The notes under the pieces were generated by a model. That model saw only the letters and a list, made by a program, of their open reading frames with translations. It was not told the origin of the DNA and did not search any database. From positions 62,001 through 126,000 of the forward strand of contig JAVYOO010000001.1 in assembly GCA_038734275.1 (NCBI GenBank): DNA of 64,000 bases. The letters run 5' to 3'. How positions within the stretch are numbered: the stretch's first letter is position 1; the number at the start of each line of letters is the position of its first letter. A program made the position numbers and the translations under genes. This DNA comes from Archaeoglobaceae archaeon (lineage in GTDB: Archaea; Halobacteriota; Archaeoglobi; Archaeoglobales; Archaeoglobaceae). Below, piece by piece: positions 30,767 to 40,596 of the stretch.

Positions 30767-31486
30767 TTAGCCAAGGAGCTTTTCTGTCAGATCTATAGCC
30801 GAAGTTAGGGCAATTGAATCGCTGATGCTCAGCAAAGGCTTTCCTTCGACATCAAGTCTGAATATAGCCTCATCTTCAGGAATCGTGAAGACAAAGTCAA
30901 AATTCTTATTTTCAACTCTTATCGCCTCTCGAACCTTGTTGATCACGAGTGCACATTTTCTGAATTTTACAGCCTTTTGGGCTACGGATCTAATTTGATC
31001 CGCCACCAAAAATCCTTTTTTGCTCATGTCTGATACAACTAAAAGCACGTCAACGTCTCTCATCACTCTTCTGTTTATCTGCTCAACTCCCGCCTCGCCA
31101 TCGATCACAACGTAGTCAAAAGATCCTGAAAGAATTTCAATTGCTTCTCTTAGCATCGAATTCAGCTGACAGTAGCATCCCTCTTCTTCAGGTCTTCCCA
31201 TCGCCAGAAATGAGAATTTATCACTCTCAATCAATGCTTCGAGTATTTTGTAATCTATCGAAGTTGCAATCTCGACCTTGTCGTATTTTTCTCTGATCAT
31301 TTCGACTATTTCTTTCCTTATATCTTCCAGCGTTTTTTCAATCTCGACTCCAAGGGCAATCGAAAGCCCTCCTGCTGGATCTGCATCGATTGCCAAAACC
31401 TTGCCTTTTTCAGACAGAACTCTGGTTAACAGTGCGGAAACGGTTGTTTTACCAGCACCACCCTTTCCAACAACCGCAATTTTCAT
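30767..31486 (-). CDS. cooC: CooC/AcsF-type nickel-insertion ATPase
   Basis: This MinD-family ATPase has the deviant Walker A GKGGAGKTT (7-15), DADPAGG, VIDGEAGVEQ, and the CooC-specific CxC motif C104-Y-C106 in EEGCYCQLNSM. CooC proteins dimerise on ATP and bring nickel to CO dehydrogenase through this cysteine pair. Here it is the last gene of the nine-gene acyl-CoA reductase-type operon, overlapping the preceding gene by four bases, rather than being beside either cdhA copy. It may serve CO dehydrogenase, or may assemble a metal site in the enzymes of this operon. The identity is secure; the target is not. Confidence 0.85.
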   Translation of the reverse strand: MKIAVVGKGGAGKTTVSALLTRVLSEKGKVLAIDADPAGGLSIALGVEIEKTLEDIRKEIVEMIREKYDKVEIATSIDYKILEALIESDKFSFLAMGRPEEEGCYCQLNSMLREAIEILSGSFDYVVIDGEAGVEQINRRVMRDVDVLLVVSDMSKKGFLVADQIRSVAQKAVKFRKCALVINKVREAIRVENKNFDFVFTIPEDEAIFRLDVEGKPLLSISDSIALTSAIDLTEKLLG

Positions 31487-32151
31487 ACTCTCTTGATTTT
31501 CTCTCTTATCATTTTAAGTTCTGGAATTTCGGTGCAAACGTCCTTATAATCACATTCTTCGCAATTCAGCAGTTTTTCCTCGTGCATTTTTATCAAAGCG
31601 TTGGTTATCTTTCTTGCTTTTTCAAAAACATCGCTCAGGGCATCGATATCCTTTTTTGAAGTCAGAATTATCACATCGGTAGCCTTGACAAATTTAATTG
31701 AATTCATGGCTTCCAGAACAGCTCTTCCAAAAACTCCAAGACTGAAGCCACTGGCTGTGGCATTCTTGCCTACCCTAAGCCATACTTTCATCTGGCTTGG
31801 AAGGCTTCTGATTGTTACCCCTGACAATCCAAGATCATAGAAGGCATCTCTCATAGCTTTAAAGCACTCATACTTCTCAAGCTTGTCATTCCATAAAATT
31901 TCGCAGATAACAATAATCGCAAGAGATCCATCAGAATCCTCAGAGATATAAATCCTGTTTTCAGCCTTCCCCCAGATGAGCAGGAGTGCTGAGCTATTTT
32001 TTCCGAGTTCATAAGCCAGTTCATTTCTTGTCACAACATCTCTTTTTCTGTTCCACTGCTGAAACAGAAAAGGATCGTATTTGCGAACTTTTCCCATTTT
32101 TATCTCTTCCTCAACGTAGTCCCTTATTCTATCGACGATTTCGTCAAACAT
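31483..32151 (-). CDS. Unrecognised protein of the acyl-CoA reductase-type operon
   Basis: The 222-residue soluble protein has mixed alpha/beta character and a C-terminal cysteine motif (NCEECDYKDVCTEIPE, near 195-210) that could bind a metal or cluster. Remotely, this end reminds me of acetyl-CoA synthase beta-subunit segments, which together with the adjacent cooC would hint at a CO dehydrogenase-related role, but I cannot support this from sequence alone. It begins next to the stop of the ATPase gene (32152) and overlaps cooC by four bases, so it is certainly part of the operon. Confidence 0.75.
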   Translation of the reverse strand: MFDEIVDRIRDYVEEEIKMGKVRKYDPFLFQQWNRKRDVVTRNELAYELGKNSSALLLIWGKAENRIYISEDSDGSLAIIVICEILWNDKLEKYECFKAMRDAFYDLGLSGVTIRSLPSQMKVWLRVGKNATASGFSLGVFGRAVLEAMNSIKFVKATDVIILTSKKDIDALSDVFEKARKITNALIKMHEEKLLNCEECDYKDVCTEIPELKMIREKIKRV

Positions 32152-32898
32152 TCAAAATTCCTCTGCCACTATTCCCGCTCCAATTGCTACCGCAAGCTGT
32201 GGTTGTGGGAAGCTTACATAATCTCCGCCAATTGTTTTTCTTATTCTTTCTGTAATGGTTGCAAAGTTTGCAACTCCTCCTGTAATCGTGTATTTTCCAG
32301 CTATATTCAGCTTTTTCACCTGAGATGCCACAATTTTCGCAATGGAGTCGCAGACTGCAGAGATAATATTTTCCCTCTTTTCCCCATCATTTACGTATGA
32401 AATTACCTCACTTTCAGCGAAAACAGCACACTGCGAAGTTATGGAGAGCTTTTTATCAGAATTCACCGCAAATTTATCCACATTGCGAATGTCTAAGCCG
32501 AGTGCAGAACTCATTACTTCCAAGAATTTACCGCTACCACTTGCACACTTGTCGTTCTTAACGTAATCAATTACGTTGCCATCTTTATCAATAGAAACTA
32601 CAGTTATGCTTTGCGCCCCGATGTCGATGACGTAGTCAGCGTTTACTATGTCTCTTCCAGCTATTGCAAGACACACAACATCGTCTTCTTTGATCTCAGC
32701 AAATTCAACAAGTTCTGCACCGCTTCCTGTTGCACAACATTTCTCAAATTTTCCAAATTTTTTAATCCCGCCGAGCACAGACTCAAACACGGGCTTCAAG
32801 TTTCCCGCAGTTTCTTCAATTACGTAGCCCTTGACTTTTCCATCCCATAAAACAGCTTTAGTGAATCTTGTTCCTACATCAATCCCGAGAAACATCAT
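32152..32898 (-). CDS. BcrD/BzdP-like ATPase subunit (activator family)
   Basis: This is a member of the BcrA/BadF/BzdQ/HgdC family, ASKHA-fold ATPases that drive electrons to very low potential. Residues seen are GIDVGTRFTKA, GAQSITVVSID, C118 in KNDKCASGSGKFLE and C157 in SQCAVFAESEV. These two cysteines are the ligands for a [4Fe-4S] cluster shared between two subunits. The length of 248 is slightly short. Two different ATPase genes side by side are typical of benzoyl-CoA reductase, whereas 2-hydroxyacyl-CoA dehydratases usually use one gene for a homodimer. It overlaps the upstream ATPase gene by four bases. Confidence 0.85.
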   Translation of the reverse strand: MMFLGIDVGTRFTKAVLWDGKVKGYVIEETAGNLKPVFESVLGGIKKFGKFEKCCATGSGAELVEFAEIKEDDVVCLAIAGRDIVNADYVIDIGAQSITVVSIDKDGNVIDYVKNDKCASGSGKFLEVMSSALGLDIRNVDKFAVNSDKKLSITSQCAVFAESEVISYVNDGEKRENIISAVCDSIAKIVASQVKKLNIAGKYTITGGVANFATITERIRKTIGGDYVSFPQPQLAVAIGAGIVAEEF

Positions 32899-33683
32899 TT
32901 ACCTCCATATTTCTCCTTTGCAAAAATCGCCGCTCCAAGGGCTCCGATTATCTGTGGATCCATACCCAAATCGATAAACCTTATGTTCAGAATTTTCTCG
33001 AGTTCCCATTTAACTCCTCTGTTTTTTGCCACACCACCAGTCAAAGCAACTTCCCTTTCAACCCCTACACGTCTTGCGAGGTAGTAAATTCTTTGAGCCA
33101 TCGATCTGTTCACTCCTGCTGCAATGTCTTCCTTTGGGAAACCTCTCTGTAGAAAATGAAGAACTTCGGTTTCAGCAAAAATACTGCATCTTGCAGTAAT
33201 CTCAATTGGATTTTTTGATATAAAAGTCATCTCTCCGAGTTCTTCAAGCTTTATCCCGAGTGCTCTTGCCTGAATTTCCAAAAATCTCCCAGTGCCTGCT
33301 GCGCATTTATCGTTCATCACAAAGTTTACAAGCTTGCCTTTTTCATCTATTCTTATAACCTTTGCATCCTGTCCGCCTATGTCGATAACAGTTCTAACCG
33401 TGGGATTAAGCCAGAAGGCTCCTTTTGCGTGACAGCTTATCTCGCTAACGTGTTCTTTGGCAAATCCAGCTTCGACAAGTTTCTCTCTTCCATAGCCAGT
33501 TGAAAAAGTTATTATATTGTTTTTGCTCAAACCAAGCTCATCGAGTAACTCACCCATCACCTTTTTTGCAGATTCCACTGGATTTGGAAGCACTCTCATG
33601 TTTTTCCAACCGATGACCTTGTTATCTTCAATTATAACAGCCTGAGCCGTAAGAGAACCTACATCGGTTCCTGCGAATAGCAT
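32895..33683 (-). CDS. BcrA/BzdQ-like ATPase subunit (activator family)
   Basis: This is the second ASKHA ATPase of the operon. It shows GTDVGSLTAQAVI, GGQDAKVIRID, C127 in MNDKCAAGTGRFLE and C166 in TARCSIFAETEV, the same positions as the cluster ligands of HgdC from Acidaminococcus, plus GGVAKNRGV and GALGAAIFA. Together with the 248-residue partner it should form a heterodimer bridging one [4Fe-4S] cluster and couple ATP hydrolysis to single-electron transfer to the catalytic subunits. The gene start lies inside the end of the preceding catalytic-subunit gene (25-base overlap). Confidence 0.88.
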   Translation of the reverse strand: MLFAGTDVGSLTAQAVIIEDNKVIGWKNMRVLPNPVESAKKVMGELLDELGLSKNNIITFSTGYGREKLVEAGFAKEHVSEISCHAKGAFWLNPTVRTVIDIGGQDAKVIRIDEKGKLVNFVMNDKCAAGTGRFLEIQARALGIKLEELGEMTFISKNPIEITARCSIFAETEVLHFLQRGFPKEDIAAGVNRSMAQRIYYLARRVGVEREVALTGGVAKNRGVKWELEKILNIRFIDLGMDPQIIGALGAAIFAKEKYGGK

Positions 33684-35044
33684 AATATCAGCCTTTTCGC
33701 CTCCTCTTCTTGCCTTTTGCTATGAAGAACGCTAATCGGCGTTATTCTACGATTCCAGCAGTCCCCATCAAGTCTCAAAACTGGTATTCCTTCTTTCGTC
33801 AGTTCATCTCTTAGAATTCTGAACACGCTTTGGGACTGCTTACATGCATGATGCCCGCTATAAACAGCGCAATTCGCATTCAAATCTTTTACCAGATGCA
33901 GAGTATCTTCAACCCACTTGAGTCCCATGTTTTCCGCACCCATCTGCCTCGTCATAACGTAGTTCCAAGCATTGTTGGCAAGAGCGTCAATCGCTTCTTC
34001 CTTTGTGCTAACTTCATGCATCTCCTTCAAAACCTGAGAATTAAGGAGATCGTTGAGATAGCTTATTCCGTTGTCCTCAAGCCAGAGCCAGAACTCAAAG
34101 AGGTCGATGTAATAGCCAGTATAAACCCAGAGACTTCTTGCAATCTCCTTTTCAGCAGGGTATTCTCCTTTACGTAGTCTCTTCTCTGCCACTTCTATGA
34201 ATTTCTGAAACATCTCGATTGCTTCATCTCTTCCCCACATTGTAAAGCGGGTTCCGTAGCTCATCAGTGTGAACATGTTTGGCACAGGGCACGGAGAATT
34301 TTTCTTGAGCTCATAAAGCTCCCAGTAAAGCTCTGTCGCTTCATTGCATTTTTCGATCGTTTTTATCAATCTGTCTTCATCAACCTCACCCAATTCCGCC
34401 TCAAGCTTTGAAAACATCTTATGAAATAGTCTCCTGTATAGTTCGAAATCCCTTGCACTTTCTCCAGTTTTGTCAAGTATTATCTCAGGTATTCCAAGAT
34501 ACTCAGAGACAAATTCATGAATCTTCGAGTTTGCATCACAGGATCCGGGAGCTGCAGAGATCATCATATCGGGAACAAATTCTCTTGCCTGCGTGGACAA
34601 CAAAATAGAACCCAATGCTATTGTATTTGCTGAGCACACAAAGTCGGGAATTCCGAGAGAGACTGCGAAATCCCAGTATGGCTCGCCCTGATGAGCAAGA
34701 GCGAGTGTGCCAGTTGTAGTTACAACTTCAGTTGTAAACGGAACCGCGTTATCAAAAGCATTTATAACTTCAGGAGGGAAGTTAAAGGGTATCATTACGA
34801 CTTTTTTGCCCTTATCCTTCGCTTCCACAGCTTCAATAACGTGTTTACCAAGAATATCCTGCAAAAATTGTAGTCCGGCCCCATCATGTCTTTCATCAAG
34901 AAAGCTTTTGAGCGTGTGAGCCTGCTCCTTTACAAATAGATCCAACATGCTGTTGATTTCATCTCTTGTATAAGCACCAAAATTCCTGATCGTTTTCAGA
35001 ACCTGATAACTTCTCAAAACCAGCCCATTCTTAATTTCCGACAT
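33659..35044 (-). CDS. BcrB/BzdO-like catalytic subunit (HgdB-type, 2-hydroxyacyl-CoA dehydratase family D)
   Basis: The 461-residue protein belongs to the family of benzoyl-CoA reductase and 2-hydroxyacyl-CoA dehydratase catalytic subunits. Cysteines that could ligate the active-site cluster are in DFVCSANT, APGSCDANS, SGHHACKQSQS and LDGDCWNRR. The length fits BcrB/BzdO (about 440). It ends inside the ATPase gene and starts 3 bases downstream of the stop of the second catalytic-subunit gene. Together they would form the heterodimer that accepts electrons from the ATPase. Whether it reduces an aromatic acyl-CoA or dehydrates a hydroxyacyl-CoA cannot be decided from sequence. Confidence 0.85.
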   Translation of the reverse strand: MSEIKNGLVLRSYQVLKTIRNFGAYTRDEINSMLDLFVKEQAHTLKSFLDERHDGAGLQFLQDILGKHVIEAVEAKDKGKKVVMIPFNFPPEVINAFDNAVPFTTEVVTTTGTLALAHQGEPYWDFAVSLGIPDFVCSANTIALGSILLSTQAREFVPDMMISAAPGSCDANSKIHEFVSEYLGIPEIILDKTGESARDFELYRRLFHKMFSKLEAELGEVDEDRLIKTIEKCNEATELYWELYELKKNSPCPVPNMFTLMSYGTRFTMWGRDEAIEMFQKFIEVAEKRLRKGEYPAEKEIARSLWVYTGYYIDLFEFWLWLEDNGISYLNDLLNSQVLKEMHEVSTKEEAIDALANNAWNYVMTRQMGAENMGLKWVEDTLHLVKDLNANCAVYSGHHACKQSQSVFRILRDELTKEGIPVLRLDGDCWNRRITPISVLHSKRQEEEAKRLILCYSQEPM

Positions 35045-35047
35045 AAT

Positions 35048-36160
35048 TCACCTCCCCAGCCTTTCCATAAAAGCCTGAACCCTCGTTTTTATTCTGCCAA
35101 TGTCTGCTGATGAAGCGTATTCTTTTTCCAGCAAAAGCACTGGAATGCCCTCTTTTTCAAGATCCAATCTTAACTTGGCGTTTTCAATACCAAATAAATC
35201 ACAGAACTTGTTATGGGTCAAAATAACCCCGTCTGCTTCAGCCATTTCAACCATTTGTTTTATAAAATTCTTCCTGAAATTGTATTCTCCGAACATCCTT
35301 GCGCATATCTTCAGAGTTTCGAGATACTTTTTCGCAAGAAACTCGTAGATGTCTCCACCATCATACTCCATCGCATTCCAGAATCCACCTGTGCCAAAGC
35401 ACGTTGTTTCTGCCACAATCAACGCACCCATTTCTTCGATCTTTTTTAGAAGTTCAATTTCATCTAACGGACTTCCTCCAAGCACGATTTTAGCCCTAAA
35501 GTCTATTTTTCTGCCTTGGCTCAAAACTTTATCAAGCAAAGAGTTGAAAGTCTCTGAAGGCAAGGATTCGCGTGCGATAGCCAGTGCTATGGCTTCGTGT
35601 CCATAAAAATTTGGAATCTTGTATCTTTTTTTGCCAAAATCTGCGAGCTTTTTGTTAATCTGAGCTTGGAGCCTTATTTGACCTATAATATCATCCTCGT
35701 GTATTTTCAGCTGGAATTGTTTCTCAAAAAAGCTTTTTAGATCCCTTATTTCATCTGCGAAAAATTTTAGGGTATCCTCATTGACAATGTGTGGGACTTT
35801 AAAGTAATAAATGAATTTAGCCTTCTTTGCGTGGTTGATTTCATCGAAAGTGCCCATCCAGTGATCACAACCCCTAACTCTAACAAAGCCATCGAGAAAA
35901 TCGTAGCTCCCATTTAAAACAAGTTCAAGACAACTTCTGCACAGACTACAGTTATATCTGGAGAGGTAGGAATCTGCTGTGGAAGTATCTGGATTGCTGT
36001 TTCCTCTTAGCCTAAAGGGCAGAATTTTACCTGCTTCAGCAACTTCTTTTGGCAGAGCTATGCATGCATGACCAATTACAAAACCGCCTTTAGACTTCCA
36101 GTCTTTTATATAATCATTTTCCAGAATTCTGGAGATTTCTTGGACTTTATCCAGCCCCAT
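35048..36160 (-). CDS. BcrC/BzdN-like catalytic subunit
   Basis: This is the second subunit of the same family, 370 residues. The N-terminal cluster-ligand region holds C71, C74, C77 (YNCSLCRSCLE) and C98 in VRGCDHW; a later cysteine is in VAETTCFGTGGFW. The length resembles BcrC/BzdN (about 380). The start ATG shares one base with the stop of the helical protein gene (TAATG), and the next gene follows after three bases. The pair of catalytic subunits plus two ATPases is the gene set of an ATP-dependent benzoyl-CoA reductase. The ferredoxin usually needed is not in the operon. Confidence 0.85.
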   Translation of the reverse strand: MGLDKVQEISRILENDYIKDWKSKGGFVIGHACIALPKEVAEAGKILPFRLRGNSNPDTSTADSYLSRYNCSLCRSCLELVLNGSYDFLDGFVRVRGCDHWMGTFDEINHAKKAKFIYYFKVPHIVNEDTLKFFADEIRDLKSFFEKQFQLKIHEDDIIGQIRLQAQINKKLADFGKKRYKIPNFYGHEAIALAIARESLPSETFNSLLDKVLSQGRKIDFRAKIVLGGSPLDEIELLKKIEEMGALIVAETTCFGTGGFWNAMEYDGGDIYEFLAKKYLETLKICARMFGEYNFRKNFIKQMVEMAEADGVILTHNKFCDLFGIENAKLRLDLEKEGIPVLLLEKEYASSADIGRIKTRVQAFMERLGR

Positions 36161-37443
36161 TATCTCTCACCTTCTCTCCTCATGCTCATAAAACCCGCAA
36201 AGGACTGGAGCAGTGGAAGTGCAAGAGCTGAGAGTATTTGCGGATTTGATGCTATGACGTCCATTATTGACTTTACTAAGTTGTTTAGTAATTTTTCGAG
36301 CTCTTTCTTGTCTGAAGAAGCGATTACAGAATTTATAATTCCTGAAATCGCCTTTGGATCACTCTCAGCAATTCCATTTATGATCTTCGCAATCCCGCTT
36401 AAAATTTCGCCAAGTTTCTTTGTGTCAACCTCCTTAAGCAAAGATGTTGTAACCTGTGCAGAGAGATCTGGTGGTAGTTCGTTAAACTTCGAAATTGCTT
36501 TGCTTCCCATACTCATCAAGAGGTTAAGTGCAGTGGGTGCCAAAGGAGCTAAAGCCATAATTGTTAGCGGATTTTTCCACAGCGCATTGTTTAATGCATC
36601 GCTTAAATCGCTTAAATCTTCTAAAATTGCGTTGATCGCTTTTCTGAACTCTTCAACGTCTAAAGAGTTGAAAAACTTCTCCATTGTAGCCTCAGCTACC
36701 TCTTTGAACTTTCTGTCGCCCTTCCCGAGCACATAATTACCCTCATGCACCTTATTGATCAGTGCGGAAACGCTTCCCACGGTTTTTCCCAATTGTTCCA
36801 CGTCAAACTTGCCGATAGTTCCAAAAAGAGCACTCGCAAGAACTTCGGACGGCATCTCGACTCTTTTGAGCGCATCATTAGCTATAGTCAAGCTGGCATT
36901 TACAACAGCGGGAATAGGTGTTATCAGATTCCCGAGCTTTACAGGATTTCCAAAAATTTTCTCATTTATAATCTCAAATGTTCCAGTTGCGCAGTATGCG
37001 GAATCCTCAATGAATTTCTTGAGTTTACCAAAGTCCATAGTGTCGATAAATTCACCAATTTTGCTTCCCAATACTTCTGCAACAAGCTTTGGATGCTCCT
37101 TTCTTAGCCTTTCCATCTGATCGAAAAAGTCGTTGACCGCCTTGGCTGCGTAAATTGCATTGAGATCGTTAGCGACTCCCTTGAGTAGTCCAAATACCGC
37201 ATCAGTGGCAAAATTTCCAATATAGGAATTTAATCCACGAAAAACTCCAAAAGTTGCATTTATTGTTCTCGGTGCAAGGCTGAAGAGAGTTGTTGCAAAC
37301 TCCAGATCTTTGCTGAGAAGCTCTCTAACGTCTTTTTCTATCTTAACAGGACTCGCAAACTCCGTAGCCATTCTTCTAACAAGATCTTTGGCAAATACCG
37401 AAGTCCCCATCGTTTTCATCAAACCGAAAAACATGTCGAACAT
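36160..37443 (-). CDS. Unrecognised helical protein of the acyl-CoA reductase-type operon
   Basis: I do not recognise this 427-residue protein. It looks almost all-helical, rich in Ala, Leu, Lys, Asn and Phe, with repeated amphipathic segments of the type KFDVEQLGKTVGSVSALINK and KKLGEILSGIAKIINGI. A moderately hydrophobic stretch lies near ALWKNPLTIMALAPLAPTAL. There is no signal peptide and no metal motif. I chose the ATG at 37443 because GGAGGTGAT precedes it; the longer frame to 37530 runs only into the dehydrogenase gene. It sits between the dehydrogenases and the catalytic subunits, translationally coupled to the latter. A membrane-bound scaffold or lipid/acyl-binding role is conceivable, without direct evidence. 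Confidence 0.8.
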   Translation of the reverse strand: MFDMFFGLMKTMGTSVFAKDLVRRMATEFASPVKIEKDVRELLSKDLEFATTLFSLAPRTINATFGVFRGLNSYIGNFATDAVFGLLKGVANDLNAIYAAKAVNDFFDQMERLRKEHPKLVAEVLGSKIGEFIDTMDFGKLKKFIEDSAYCATGTFEIINEKIFGNPVKLGNLITPIPAVVNASLTIANDALKRVEMPSEVLASALFGTIGKFDVEQLGKTVGSVSALINKVHEGNYVLGKGDRKFKEVAEATMEKFFNSLDVEEFRKAINAILEDLSDLSDALNNALWKNPLTIMALAPLAPTALNLLMSMGSKAISKFNELPPDLSAQVTTSLLKEVDTKKLGEILSGIAKIINGIAESDPKAISGIINSVIASSDKKELEKLLNNLVKSIMDVIASNPQILSALALPLLQSFAGFMSMRREGER

Positions 37444-37460
37444 AGCATCACCTCCAAATT

Positions 37461-38714
37461 TTAAAGCTGGGTGCAGGCATAAAAATGTCTTGCAACATCC
37501 ATCTGGCACAACTGCCTTCCGCCCATCCATAGTTGAATTATTTTAACATCTCTCCAGTGCTTTTCAACATCGAAGTTCCGATCAATACCGTAGTGTGCGA
37601 GAAGATTCATCGCCTTCTCTGCAACATTGCAGCAGGCATCACATACCTTCAATTTTAAAGCTCTCCCTCTGGCAATTATCTCAGAAGAGAACCTCTCGCC
37701 ATAGAGCTCAGGGTTGTCGAGCATTCTTGCGTAGGTGTAAACAGCAGATCTGCAGATCTCTATTTCAGCAGCGATATCAGCCAGAATTCCTGCAACTGCT
37801 GTGTTCTCCTTTAAAGGTTTGCCTCTATACCTGAACTCACTGCATTTCTCAAGCAGAATTTCGTAAATGTTCTCCATTGCTCCAAGTGCCATCCCAGCGC
37901 TACCAAGACAGCCTGTAGAGATGATTATTCTGAAATACCTTGCATCCAGTCCTTCGCCCCAGGCTCGGTAATGCTTTGGAACCCTTACGTTTTCAAACCA
38001 GATGTCAGAATTTTTGTCTGCAGCCATTCCCGCCTTTCTGTATGGCTCCCCTTGCTTTACTCCTGGCAAATTCGCAGGAACGTAGATATAGGCAAAGCAT
38101 CTCTCATCTGCCACGCCTGGATTTGTCGTGCAAACAACCCCAAATAAATCTGCAAGACCTCCACTGTTTGTTGGCCAAAGTTTGTGACCGTTTATGACCC
38201 ATTCGTCGCCTTCGAGCTTTGCGGTAGTTCTTATGGTTTTTCCTTTAAGCTCATCGAGGTTCTCTATGTCTGAGCCACCCTGTGGTTCTGTCATAGCATT
38301 TGCTGAAATTGTCAGCTTTTTACGCCTGTAAAGTGGAGCAAACTCTGCACAAAGGTCATAATTTATGTGAGGCTTCACAGCTATCACGAAGAGTGGCCAT
38401 AAAGAAACGCCTACCGATACTGCTATTCCAGTGTCGTATCTTCCGATTTCTTCCATTACTCTTGCGGTGATTGAGCCAAAATAGTCTGAACTGCCAAGCC
38501 CCCATCCACCAACTTCTTCTGGAAAAATAGCCATCTGAATTCCGTAGTTAACCATTAGCTTCTCCAAGGCGGGTTCTATTGTTTTGTGCTCTTTCCAGTC
38601 CTCATCGAAGTTTCTTCTATGTGGTATAACGTATTTCTCGCCCCAATCCCTTATCATCTCAGCGAGATACCTTTCAAGAGGAGATTCAAATTCTTTAATT
38701 CTCGCAAACTCCAA
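37461..38714 (-). CDS. Acyl-CoA dehydrogenase-like flavoprotein lacking the usual catalytic glutamate
   Basis: The 417-residue protein has the three acyl-CoA dehydrogenase domains, with the FAD/substrate motifs ISANAMTEPQGGSDIENL (near 142), VINGHKLWPTNSGGLADL and FRYRGKPLKENTAVAGILAD. At the place where family members have IYEGT, it reads LWMGG with M397 instead of the catalytic Glu. The alternative glutamate site of isovaleryl-CoA dehydrogenase (LDLER) reads LDARY. It may use another base, act with the neighbour as a heteromer, or have a different reaction. It is 11 bases downstream of the second dehydrogenase-like gene. FAD binding looks intact. Confidence 0.85.
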   Translation of the reverse strand: MEFARIKEFESPLERYLAEMIRDWGEKYVIPHRRNFDEDWKEHKTIEPALEKLMVNYGIQMAIFPEEVGGWGLGSSDYFGSITARVMEEIGRYDTGIAVSVGVSLWPLFVIAVKPHINYDLCAEFAPLYRRKKLTISANAMTEPQGGSDIENLDELKGKTIRTTAKLEGDEWVINGHKLWPTNSGGLADLFGVVCTTNPGVADERCFAYIYVPANLPGVKQGEPYRKAGMAADKNSDIWFENVRVPKHYRAWGEGLDARYFRIIISTGCLGSAGMALGAMENIYEILLEKCSEFRYRGKPLKENTAVAGILADIAAEIEICRSAVYTYARMLDNPELYGERFSSEIIARGRALKLKVCDACCNVAEKAMNLLAHYGIDRNFDVEKHWRDVKIIQLWMGGRQLCQMDVARHFYACTQL

Positions 38715-38725
38715 AATATCACCCC

Positions 38726-39865
38726 CTACCAGAGTTTAGCACCAAAGTAACCAGAGGATAGTTCCAGAAGCAGATGATATTGATTTAGAACTGTTTTTAG
38801 GCTCTTTGCATCTCTCCACTGCTTCTCCAAAAGCCCCTCTCGCGCATAGCCTTGAGAAGCCATTAGCTCCATGGCTCGGTCTGCAGATAAGAAAGCGGAA
38901 TTTGAGCATTTCAGAGCAGAGAGTATCGAGAAAAGGTATAATTCTTCTTCGTTTCTATCTTCAAGCATCATTTTTGCCAGAATTTGTGCAATTGACTTTG
39001 CCTCAATCGCTTCTCTTGCAACCTCAGCTATTACAAGCGCATCAACTGTGTTGTCTCGTAGAGGCTTTCCCCTGATCGTTCTTTTTTCTGCCCAGTCTCT
39101 AAGAATTCTGCATGAATCAAAAGCTGAGCCTACGCAGAGCGCTGAGAGACATAGATTTAGATACGTGTATAATTTCATCCAAGCGTTTCCAGTCAGTATT
39201 CTGTTTTTCTCAATCTCTGCGTTGATCTTGACATCACAATTCCTGCTTGCGATCAATCCAGTGTTTTTAACCAATTCGCCTTTTTCAACATCTTCGGAAT
39301 CTATGAGAGCAAGAGATACACCATTGTAATTGCAAAAAACAACAAATAAATTTGCATCAAAGCCCGAGTTCAAAGGTCTTCCAAAACCCTTTATTTTTAT
39401 TTTATCCCCCCTATCTACAGCTTTAGCAAGTTCGAAACCCCTAAAATCACTCTTTCCAAACTGTGGCGGAAAAATAGAGATCCTTAGCAAATCCTGTGAA
39501 GATTTTTTAGCAATTAAATCAAATGCCTCGCTTCCCTGAGCGGAAATCATCGAAGCCAATACTGCAGAGAGCACAAAACCTATTCCAGAATCTGCTTTCC
39601 CTATTTCCTCAAAGCTTCTGAGTAAAACCGCTGGTAATTCCTCACCACTAACACCCGCACCACCCAATTCTTCGGGAAGCACTAACTTCTGCATCCCAAT
39701 ATCCAAAAAAAGCTTCTTCATGGCTTTTTCAGCTATTTCAAGTTCGTCGTCTATCTGTGCTCTGAAGGGAATAACTTCCTTCTCTGCCCACTCATTTATG
39801 CTTTTTCCAAGCATCTCTGCAACGTCACTTCTAAGTTCGGAAATACTCTCAAATTCCATTTTCAT
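38726..39865 (-). CDS. Divergent acyl-CoA dehydrogenase-like protein, first gene of the operon
   Basis: The 379-residue protein is a shorter, more diverged acyl-CoA dehydrogenase homologue. The N-terminal helical domain (EVIPFRAQID, LVLPEELGGAGVSG) and the C-terminal RTIRGKPLRDNTVDALVIAE and KQWRDAKSLKTV are recognisable. The central beta domain lacks the TEP-x-GSD motif that contacts FAD in its relatives. The position of the catalytic Glu is Leu (L360, in RDAKSLKTVLNQ). This may be the non-catalytic partner in a heteromeric dehydrogenase, as described for some FadE pairs. It is read from the divergent promoter region next to the ribbon-helix-helix regulator at 39982. Confidence 0.8.
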   Translation of the reverse strand: MKMEFESISELRSDVAEMLGKSINEWAEKEVIPFRAQIDDELEIAEKAMKKLFLDIGMQKLVLPEELGGAGVSGEELPAVLLRSFEEIGKADSGIGFVLSAVLASMISAQGSEAFDLIAKKSSQDLLRISIFPPQFGKSDFRGFELAKAVDRGDKIKIKGFGRPLNSGFDANLFVVFCNYNGVSLALIDSEDVEKGELVKNTGLIASRNCDVKINAEIEKNRILTGNAWMKLYTYLNLCLSALCVGSAFDSCRILRDWAEKRTIRGKPLRDNTVDALVIAEVAREAIEAKSIAQILAKMMLEDRNEEELYLFSILSALKCSNSAFLSADRAMELMASQGYAREGLLEKQWRDAKSLKTVLNQYHLLLELSSGYFGAKLW

Positions 39866-39981: not shown

Positions 39982-40596
39982 ATGAAGAAAAGACTTCACA
40001 CCACTATAAGTGCTGAGGCGAGTAAGATAATTGAAAAGTATCTCGCCGAATATGGCAGAGTGAATAATGTTATTGAGGAAGCTTTAATGGTTTTTGATCG
40101 GTATAAACAGGGCAATTTCGATACCACCTGCAATCTCATCGAGCTGATGGATGAAGCGAATCTCGTTGCGTTCAATGCAAAAACAATCGAACTCGTGGTT
40201 TCAGGTGAAATCGAAAAAGCTTTGTGCGATAACGAATTGGAGATAATTATAAGAAGGATCTATAAAAAACCACTTGCCGAAATATCAGTTCTCGAGGCTA
40301 TTCAGGGTATTGAAAAGTGCCTTTTGACAACTAGAAAGGCAATAAAGGTCAACTTGAAAACCGATAACAGAGGTCATTACTTGCTTGTGACGTCCAATCT
40401 CGGAAAAAATACGGATATAATCGTATGCGAAGCGATAAGAAGATTTCTTGAGAAAAACTTCAACGTTAAAGTTTCATTTGAAGTATTTTCGCAAGGATAT
40501 AGCATTTTTGCAGAGTTAAAGCATATAAAACAGGATCTTGTGATCCCAGAACAGTCTGGGAGACTTGAAGCGGGCAAAGAATTCCAGATTGCCTGA
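39982..40596 (+). CDS. Ribbon-helix-helix transcriptional regulator with a C-terminal domain of unknown role
   Basis: The N-terminal about 45 residues (KKRLHTTISAEASKIIEKY, then GRVNNVIEEALMVF) fit a ribbon-helix-helix DNA-binding domain. The remaining about 155 residues form an alpha/beta domain that I do not recognise; it ends with a hydrophobic strand pattern and could bind a ligand. I chose the ATG at 39982 because the upstream in-frame part (from 39901) covers the TATA-like element and the repeats. It is divergent to the acyl-CoA operon, so it is the natural candidate for its regulator. The length of 204 is larger than simple CopG proteins. Confidence 0.78.
   Translation: MKKRLHTTISAEASKIIEKYLAEYGRVNNVIEEALMVFDRYKQGNFDTTCNLIELMDEANLVAFNAKTIELVVSGEIEKALCDNELEIIIRRIYKKPLAEISVLEAIQGIEKCLLTTRKAIKVNLKTDNRGHYLLVTSNLGKNTDIIVCEAIRRFLEKNFNVKVSFEVFSQGYSIFAELKHIKQDLVIPEQSGRLEAGKEFQIA

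Follow-up and report, generated by a model that had tools for sequence, protein, structure and literature searches.

We find that a nine-gene operon of an Archaeoglobaceae archaeon probably encodes an ATP-driven, low-potential, two-electron reductase together with dedicated partner proteins (estimated probability about 0.6). The reductase would belong to the family of class I benzoyl-CoA reductase (BCR), 2-hydroxyacyl-CoA dehydratase (HAD), and double-cubane cluster protein (DCCP), where CoA is coenzyme A. The operon occupies positions 30767-39865 on the minus strand of the window, i.e., the whole analysed stretch of 64,000 nucleotides (assembly GCA_038734275.1, contig JAVYOO010000001.1, positions 62,001 to 126,000), and its genes are named A to I in transcription order. 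Cluster ligands, ATPase motifs, the losses in the benzoyl pocket and of the dehydrogenase base, CdhC/CooC ancestry, and gene order were read from the sequence.

The reductase core comprises genes D to G. By Pfam, D (35048..36160, 370 aa) and E (33659..35044, 461 aa) are HGD-D proteins (PF06050), while F (32895..33683) and G (32152..32898) are BcrAD_BadFG proteins (PF01869). F is an HgdC/BzdQ-type ATPase (TIGR00241, 257.8 bits) and G a second, divergent HgdC-type ATPase (169.9 bits), and the two are separate genes in every operon copy. Their cluster cysteines are C127 and C166 in F and C118 and C157 in G, just as the initial annotation of the window had given them. D is a BzdN-like subunit that aligns with BzdN over its full length (E 2e-34). 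Its C33/C71/C98/C254/C286/C320 align with Cys36/73/100/263/293/327, the published [8Fe-9S] ligands of BzdN (PMC11971306). All six are invariant in the orthologs, including that of the bacterium described below, whereas HadC, a subunit of a redox-neutral dehydratase, lacks the equivalents of C36 and C263.

E is an HgdB/BzdO-like catalytic subunit. C137/C169/C401 correspond to BzdO Cys95/128/380 and E106 to BzdO Glu65, and all are kept in the orthologs. The BzdO pocket, on the other hand, is replaced in all copies, with Leu/Met for Trp46, Ala/Ser for Tyr97, and Asn172 for His131. In BzdO, Trp46 packs the benzoyl ring, Tyr97 holds the thioester oxygen, and His131 contacts the cluster water (PMC11971306). 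HadB, unlike E, retains the equivalents of Trp46 and Tyr97. E has a set of invariant residues of its own near the cluster, Asn172, His398, and Lys402. In one alignment, the numbering of archaeal BzdO shifts beyond about residue 100, and the residues were therefore read from aligned motifs and a separate BzdO alignment.

Two different cysteine-bearing ATPases together with the ligands of D and E argue for a class I BCR-like core, and judged by its sequence D-G is an electron pump like that of class I BCR, but its pocket is not the same. The architecture initially proposed, an ATP-driven system of class I benzoyl-CoA reductase type with a pair of ATPases and a pair of HgdB-type subunits, is thus borne out, and D has all six double-cubane cysteines as well. 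An acyl-CoA as the substrate of the reductase, also proposed, is not supported or at best open, as E lost both Trp46 and the thioester-contacting Tyr97 that HadB kept. The double-cubane cysteines of D are also found in DCCP (6eno, 7yyl). In the DCCP homodimer, however, both subunits hold a double-cubane; E has only three cluster cysteines, and in the operon only D could bind such a cluster. The best NCBIfam match of both D and E is NF040772.

The C-terminus of E (33659-33740) differs among the copies. Orthologs in other Archaeoglobaceae end in a basic tail (e.g. KKRRRRR), which a short deletion or frameshift removes from the window copy, the basic stretch being in the next frame; this is either a real change or an assembly error. 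The window genome also has a second, distant three-gene unit of HgdB-HgdB-HgdC type (L037:7919-10815, or G000:C1:211900-214800), which is present in a related genome as well (L033).

In phylogenetic trees, D forms a clade of its own, nearest to the D-type subunit of alkyl-CoM reductase (ACR) archaea (84/95) and apart from BzdN (100/100), and E is likewise joined to the ACR-archaeal E (96/94), with BzdO and HadB on other branches. The trees contain some long branches and weak deep nodes, and their safe part is that D and E stand outside the BzdN and BzdO clades. The nearest relatives of the operon D and E are thus in a four-gene D-E-F-F cluster of ACR archaea (L031:8595-12802 and L032; genus g63), whose E also lacks Tyr97 and His131. 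That cluster differs in having no A, B, C, or H, in an E that keeps Trp46, and in a small ferredoxin gene that follows.

An alternative, which we consider improbable, is that the operon encodes a genuine class I reductase for benzoyl-CoA (or another aryl-CoA), set in an operon of a new kind. The subunit plan is the same as that of the BZD type, BzdNOPQ (PMC11971306), with two ATPases and two HgdB-type subunits, one with the six [8Fe-9S] cysteines and the other with a three-Cys [4Fe-4S] site and Glu65. All of these cysteines and the glutamate are retained here, and the weak best NCBIfam equivalog match of A and B is cyclohexane-1-carbonyl-CoA dehydrogenase. However, Trp46, Tyr97, and His131 are replaced in every ortholog, the separate clades stand as described, and D scores 119.8 bits with the bzdN hidden Markov model against a cut-off of 453.8. 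Genes for a CoA ligase, ring hydratase, ring hydrolase, or ferredoxin are absent near the operon, as had been noted initially, and the Asp91 base found in ring-specific dehydrogenases is missing from B. Moreover, genuine Bzd-type operons were found in four other Archaeoglobaceae genera (12 genomes), and none of these genomes has the nine-gene operon. Identity with the Archaeoglobaceae Bzd-type reductase was rejected by the tree and this genome distribution.

In the five Bzd-type loci examined (L104-L108), BzdN-O-P-Q are joined by other genes, none of them A, B, C, H, or I. In several of these loci, HMG-CoA-synthase-like/OB-fold and F420-type oxidoreductase genes follow. In comparison with bzd operons, the present one adds a dehydrogenase pair, a helical-repeat protein, a CdhC-like protein, and CooC, and the initial view that it is unlike bzd and bcr clusters holds. 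The tree suggested at that time as a check on novelty places D and E outside BzdN and BzdO, and no paper describing the operon was found in the retrieved literature, subscription literature lying outside that search.

Another explanation is a 2-hydroxyacyl-CoA dehydratase (HadI/HadBC-like) coupled to an enoyl-CoA-reducing acyl-CoA dehydrogenase, as in clostridial amino-acid fermentation. Such pairs of dehydratase and dehydrogenase are known. HadBC with HadI shares the catalytic-subunit fold and the three cluster cysteines, HadB is the best PDB profile match of E (2e-16), and the C401-K402 pair, a lysine following the third cysteine, is as in HadB. Against this, D holds double-cubane cysteines absent from HadC, there are two ATPase genes rather than one, and E, without the Tyr97 and Trp46 that HadB keeps, lies outside the HadB branch. 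Furthermore, B has no dehydrogenase base, and no genes for electron-transfer flavoprotein (ETF) accompany the operon. We give this explanation a low probability as well.

The last two genes of the operon derive from a different source. H (31483..32151), left unrecognised in the initial annotation, is recognisable as a stand-alone N-terminal part of CdhC, since it aligns with that part of the genome's own CdhC and gives PDB profile matches to acetyl-CoA synthase (ACS)/CdhC. PF03598 (cut-off 24 bits) is detected in H of the archaeon G156 at 71.8 bits and in that of the bacterium at 41.1 bits, while window H alone scores 18.4 bits, below the cut-off. H ends right after a CxxC-x5-C motif, so that the nickel-binding domain is missing; the Ni-site (CGC) domain and the fourth cubane cysteine are both absent. 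By homology, H is a shortened form of the beta subunit of acetyl-CoA synthase.

I (30767..31486) is a CooC/MinD-type P-loop ATPase of the metallochaperone type, having the P-loop GKGGAGKTT and a CxC motif (C104, C106). Within the genome it is closest to the CooC (42% identity) encoded beside cdhC in the cluster for carbon monoxide dehydrogenase (CODH)/ACS. The adjacency and order of H and I mirror those of cdhC and cooC in that same cluster. The archaeal CODH/ACS cluster (cdhC-cooC-cdhD-cdhE) differs in its methyltransferase and CODH subunits, which are not in the operon, and in the Ni-site domain that H lacks.

In the tree, I of the three lineages carrying the operon forms one clade (99/98), and the sister of this clade is the cdh-cluster CooC (86/89). 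Because the I orthologs are one clade and H is present in all three lineages, the H-I pair has long belonged to the module, and a recent duplication of the genome's own cdhC-cooC was rejected on the same grounds. BzdNO has been produced in E. coli with its [8Fe-9S] cluster (PMC11971306), which argues that a double-cubane needs no dedicated chaperone. H and I would therefore be a hint that E or D differs in some way. Separately, an archaeon with three ACR-type McrA genes has a second, divergent set of CdhA-, CdhB-, and CdhC-like genes followed by thiolase-like genes (L068:5769-10244, G147:C2), and this CODH/ACS-like set might handle non-acetyl groups.

The first two genes encode acyl-CoA-dehydrogenase-like proteins, A (38726..39865, 379 aa) and B (37461..38714, 417 aa), both matching PF02771 and PF00441, the N- and C-terminal acyl-CoA dehydrogenase domains, above the Pfam cut-offs. 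In A, there is no middle-domain match, and the FAD/middle-domain motif and the catalytic Glu are absent from Pfam matches and from an alignment of six orthologs; A is probably a non-catalytic, structural partner of B. B retains the motifs for flavin adenine dinucleotide (FAD), such as TEPQGGSD, but its EGT glutamate is replaced by Met397 (in WMGG) and the isovaleryl-type Glu position by Gly. Trp106 of B sits at the position of Asp91 in cyclohex-1-ene-1-carboxyl-CoA dehydrogenase (7p98), which we take to be the catalytic base of that enzyme. None of the three known acyl-CoA dehydrogenase bases (EGT Glu, isovaleryl-type Glu, Asp91) is thus present in B. 7p98 is the third-best PDB profile match of B (1.5e-32), and both lack the EGT Glu, Thr being there in 7p98 and Met in B. 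A 7p98-like function of B was rejected, however, as Asp91 is Trp106 in B.

The loss of the base bears on a further explanation, in which D-G would not be CoA-ester enzymes but would supply the B flavin (or a cofactor on A/B) with electrons of very low potential, A/B being the true acyl-CoA-transforming enzyme. FAD motifs without a base are as expected for reductive work, E is without Tyr97 and Trp46, and B is the best-conserved operon protein, with 82-89% identity within Archaeoglobaceae and 61-64% to the ACR archaeon and the bacterium. Such electron delivery has no known precedent, though, and the invariant site of E (E106, N172, H398, K402) resembles a catalytic pocket. We regard this explanation as unlikely.

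C (427 aa) had been given a start at 37530, but the start is more likely 37443 (gene 36160..37443), where a ribosome-binding site, GGAGGTGAT, precedes it and the starts of orthologs in seven loci match. C is helical and made of three homologous repeats of about 125 residues (repeat-repeat hhalign E of 9e-17, 1e-8, and 7e-8), with no known family and no transmembrane segment. Matches to the coronavirus spike and to various helical Pfam families (E 0.001-1) were judged to be chance helical matches. For the other genes, the initial domain calls agree with Pfam/NCBIfam (A, B, D, E, F, G, and I).

The order A-B-C-D-E-F-G-H-I is identical in Archaeoglobus sp. JdFR-41, UBA230, GB_MAG2_100, WYZ-LMO2 (where the copy is spread over two contigs), and G234. 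With H as the operon marker, 6 of the 55 Archaeoglobaceae genomes, in three genera, have the operon, which answers the initial suggestion to look for the same nine-gene order in Archaeoglobales. E is tandem-duplicated in some of the Archaeoglobaceae copies. The archaea that carry the operon are uncultured and come from hot springs and vents. Outside this family, the order is also found in the archaeon G156, which has two low-scoring McrA genes without the canonical motif (alkyl-CoM-reductase type) and appears from its companions to be a relative of the multicarbon-alkane-oxidising Syntropharchaeia.

The operon is also present in a Syntrophomonadaceae bacterium. One contig of this metagenome-assembled genome (MAG) carries A-B-C-C'-D-E-F-G and ends inside G, and a second starts inside G and continues from the partial G to H-I, their join not being seen. 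Both contigs hold ordinary bacterial genes, although some chance of misbinning stays with the MAG. The bacterial proteins are about as distant from either archaeal group as the archaeal groups are from each other, the between-lineage identities being 61-64% for B, 45-49% for D, 40-44% for E, and 55-60% for F. Since the nine-gene order is kept in eight genomes of two domains, chance is ruled out and the parts work together; the nine genes are one functional module, not a chance grouping. No related loci were found in viral contigs, and plasmids gave distant dehydrogenases only, with identity of at most about 30% among the matches listed.

Several neighbours of other copies were recorded. In JdFR-41, the region upstream of the operon (L020:710-4146) has, on both strands, genes for a MaoC-like hydratase, an Old Yellow Enzyme-type reductase, and a member of the acetoacetate decarboxylase family, and these could be pathway partners of the operon. 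In the bacterium, aldehyde:ferredoxin-oxidoreductase-type genes are on both operon contigs (L115:79-5319, L118:1985-4716). Those upstream of A lie beyond an opposite-strand gene, with HdrA and a ferredoxin-like gene, and those downstream of I are with thioredoxin and MoaD-like genes; as a clue to the substrate they are a lead only. On a different contig, the bacterium has an extra solitary E copy (L025:9980-11386), without D or ATPases, near methylenetetrahydrofolate-reductase-like genes.

Cofactor or metalloenzyme activation, such as activation of Mcr or Acr, rather than carbon metabolism, was weighed against this distribution. HgdC-type ATPases take part in Mcr activation, the operon contains CooC and a CdhC-derived protein, and a single McrA gene, which shows the canonical motif GGVGFTQYATAVYTDDILDD, is present in the window genome (12 contigs, 1.73 Mb). 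However, four operon-bearing Archaeoglobaceae genomes are without McrA and three McrA genomes are without the operon, and activation leaves no place for the acyl-CoA-dehydrogenase pair. A link of the operon to Mcr was rejected on the genome distribution, and this explanation is very improbable. As for the host, the genus of the window genome includes WYZ-LMO2, which has the same operon, and the host would therefore be among the Mcr-bearing Archaeoglobi (PMC7380581).

In the preferred reading, an ATP-driven reductase with dedicated partners, reduced ferredoxin would pass electrons to the F/G ATPase pair with its bridging [4Fe-4S] cluster. ATP hydrolysis would then drive them into the [8Fe-9S] double-cubane of D, where two electrons could be stored, and from D they would move to the three-Cys [4Fe-4S] site of E. 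There, a metal-bound ligand would be arranged with Glu106, Asn172, and His398, and a non-aromatic acceptor would be reduced. The A/B pair, B with FAD, may act on a CoA thioester before or after the E step, with no need for the usual base that takes the alpha-proton. H and I, derived from cdhC-cooC, may serve as an assembly or metal-delivery pair, as their homology suggests, and C may be a scaffold. We infer this electron path, net reduction, the non-aromatic acceptor, and the functions given here to A/B, C, H, and I.

Several points weigh against this reading. E has other residues in place of Tyr97 and Trp46, which BzdO and HadB share, and this leaves even the binding of an acyl-CoA by E in doubt; the best profile match of E, HadB, is a dehydratase subunit. 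The operon has no ferredoxin or ETF gene, and the roles of A/B and H/I would rest on homology only. AlphaFold models from four-sequence alignments were too low in pLDDT (predicted local distance difference test) to use, at 43.5 for H and 31.1 for C. A further possibility, though an unlikely one, is that E has an unprecedented active-site cluster, e.g. one whose open iron site holds nickel or a different heterometal, with H and I as its builders and A/B processing the product.

At the locus itself, the nine minus-strand open reading frames are tightly packed, as annotated initially, with no gap or overlap exceeding 25 bases. A/B, B/C, and D/E are separated by 11, 17, and 3 nt, respectively, and G/H by 0, and the overlaps are 1 nt for C/D, 25 nt for E/F, 4 nt for F/G, and 4 nt for H/I. 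Beside A, a divergent gene on the plus strand (39982..40596) is kept in four Archaeoglobaceae loci, with homologs in L022, L023, and L024. It has no Pfam or NCBIfam match, but its N-terminus resembles a ribbon-helix-helix repressor, making it a possible regulator of the operon. A scan for sigma-70 promoters and terminators gave no signal above shuffles, such a scan being uninformative in archaea.

Beyond the initial annotation, the origin of H from acetyl-CoA synthase, the likeness of H-I to the cdhC-cooC pair, the base-less B, and the same operon in a bacterium are new. ATP-driven double-cubane reductases reach potentials near -1 V, and the module would be a further architectural type in their family, one that Archaea and Bacteria have in common gene for gene. 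It is distinctive in its altered catalytic pocket and in a dehydrogenase pair without a known base, and makes the first apparent link between the double-cubane reductase family and the metal-assembly machinery of acetyl-CoA synthase and CooC. Its small size and its specificity make the operon amenable to direct tests by expression. If E did hold a heterometal cluster, the module would represent a new enzyme class in Archaea and Bacteria that, with the double-cubane of D, reduces substrates outside the reach of any known BCR/HAD enzyme.

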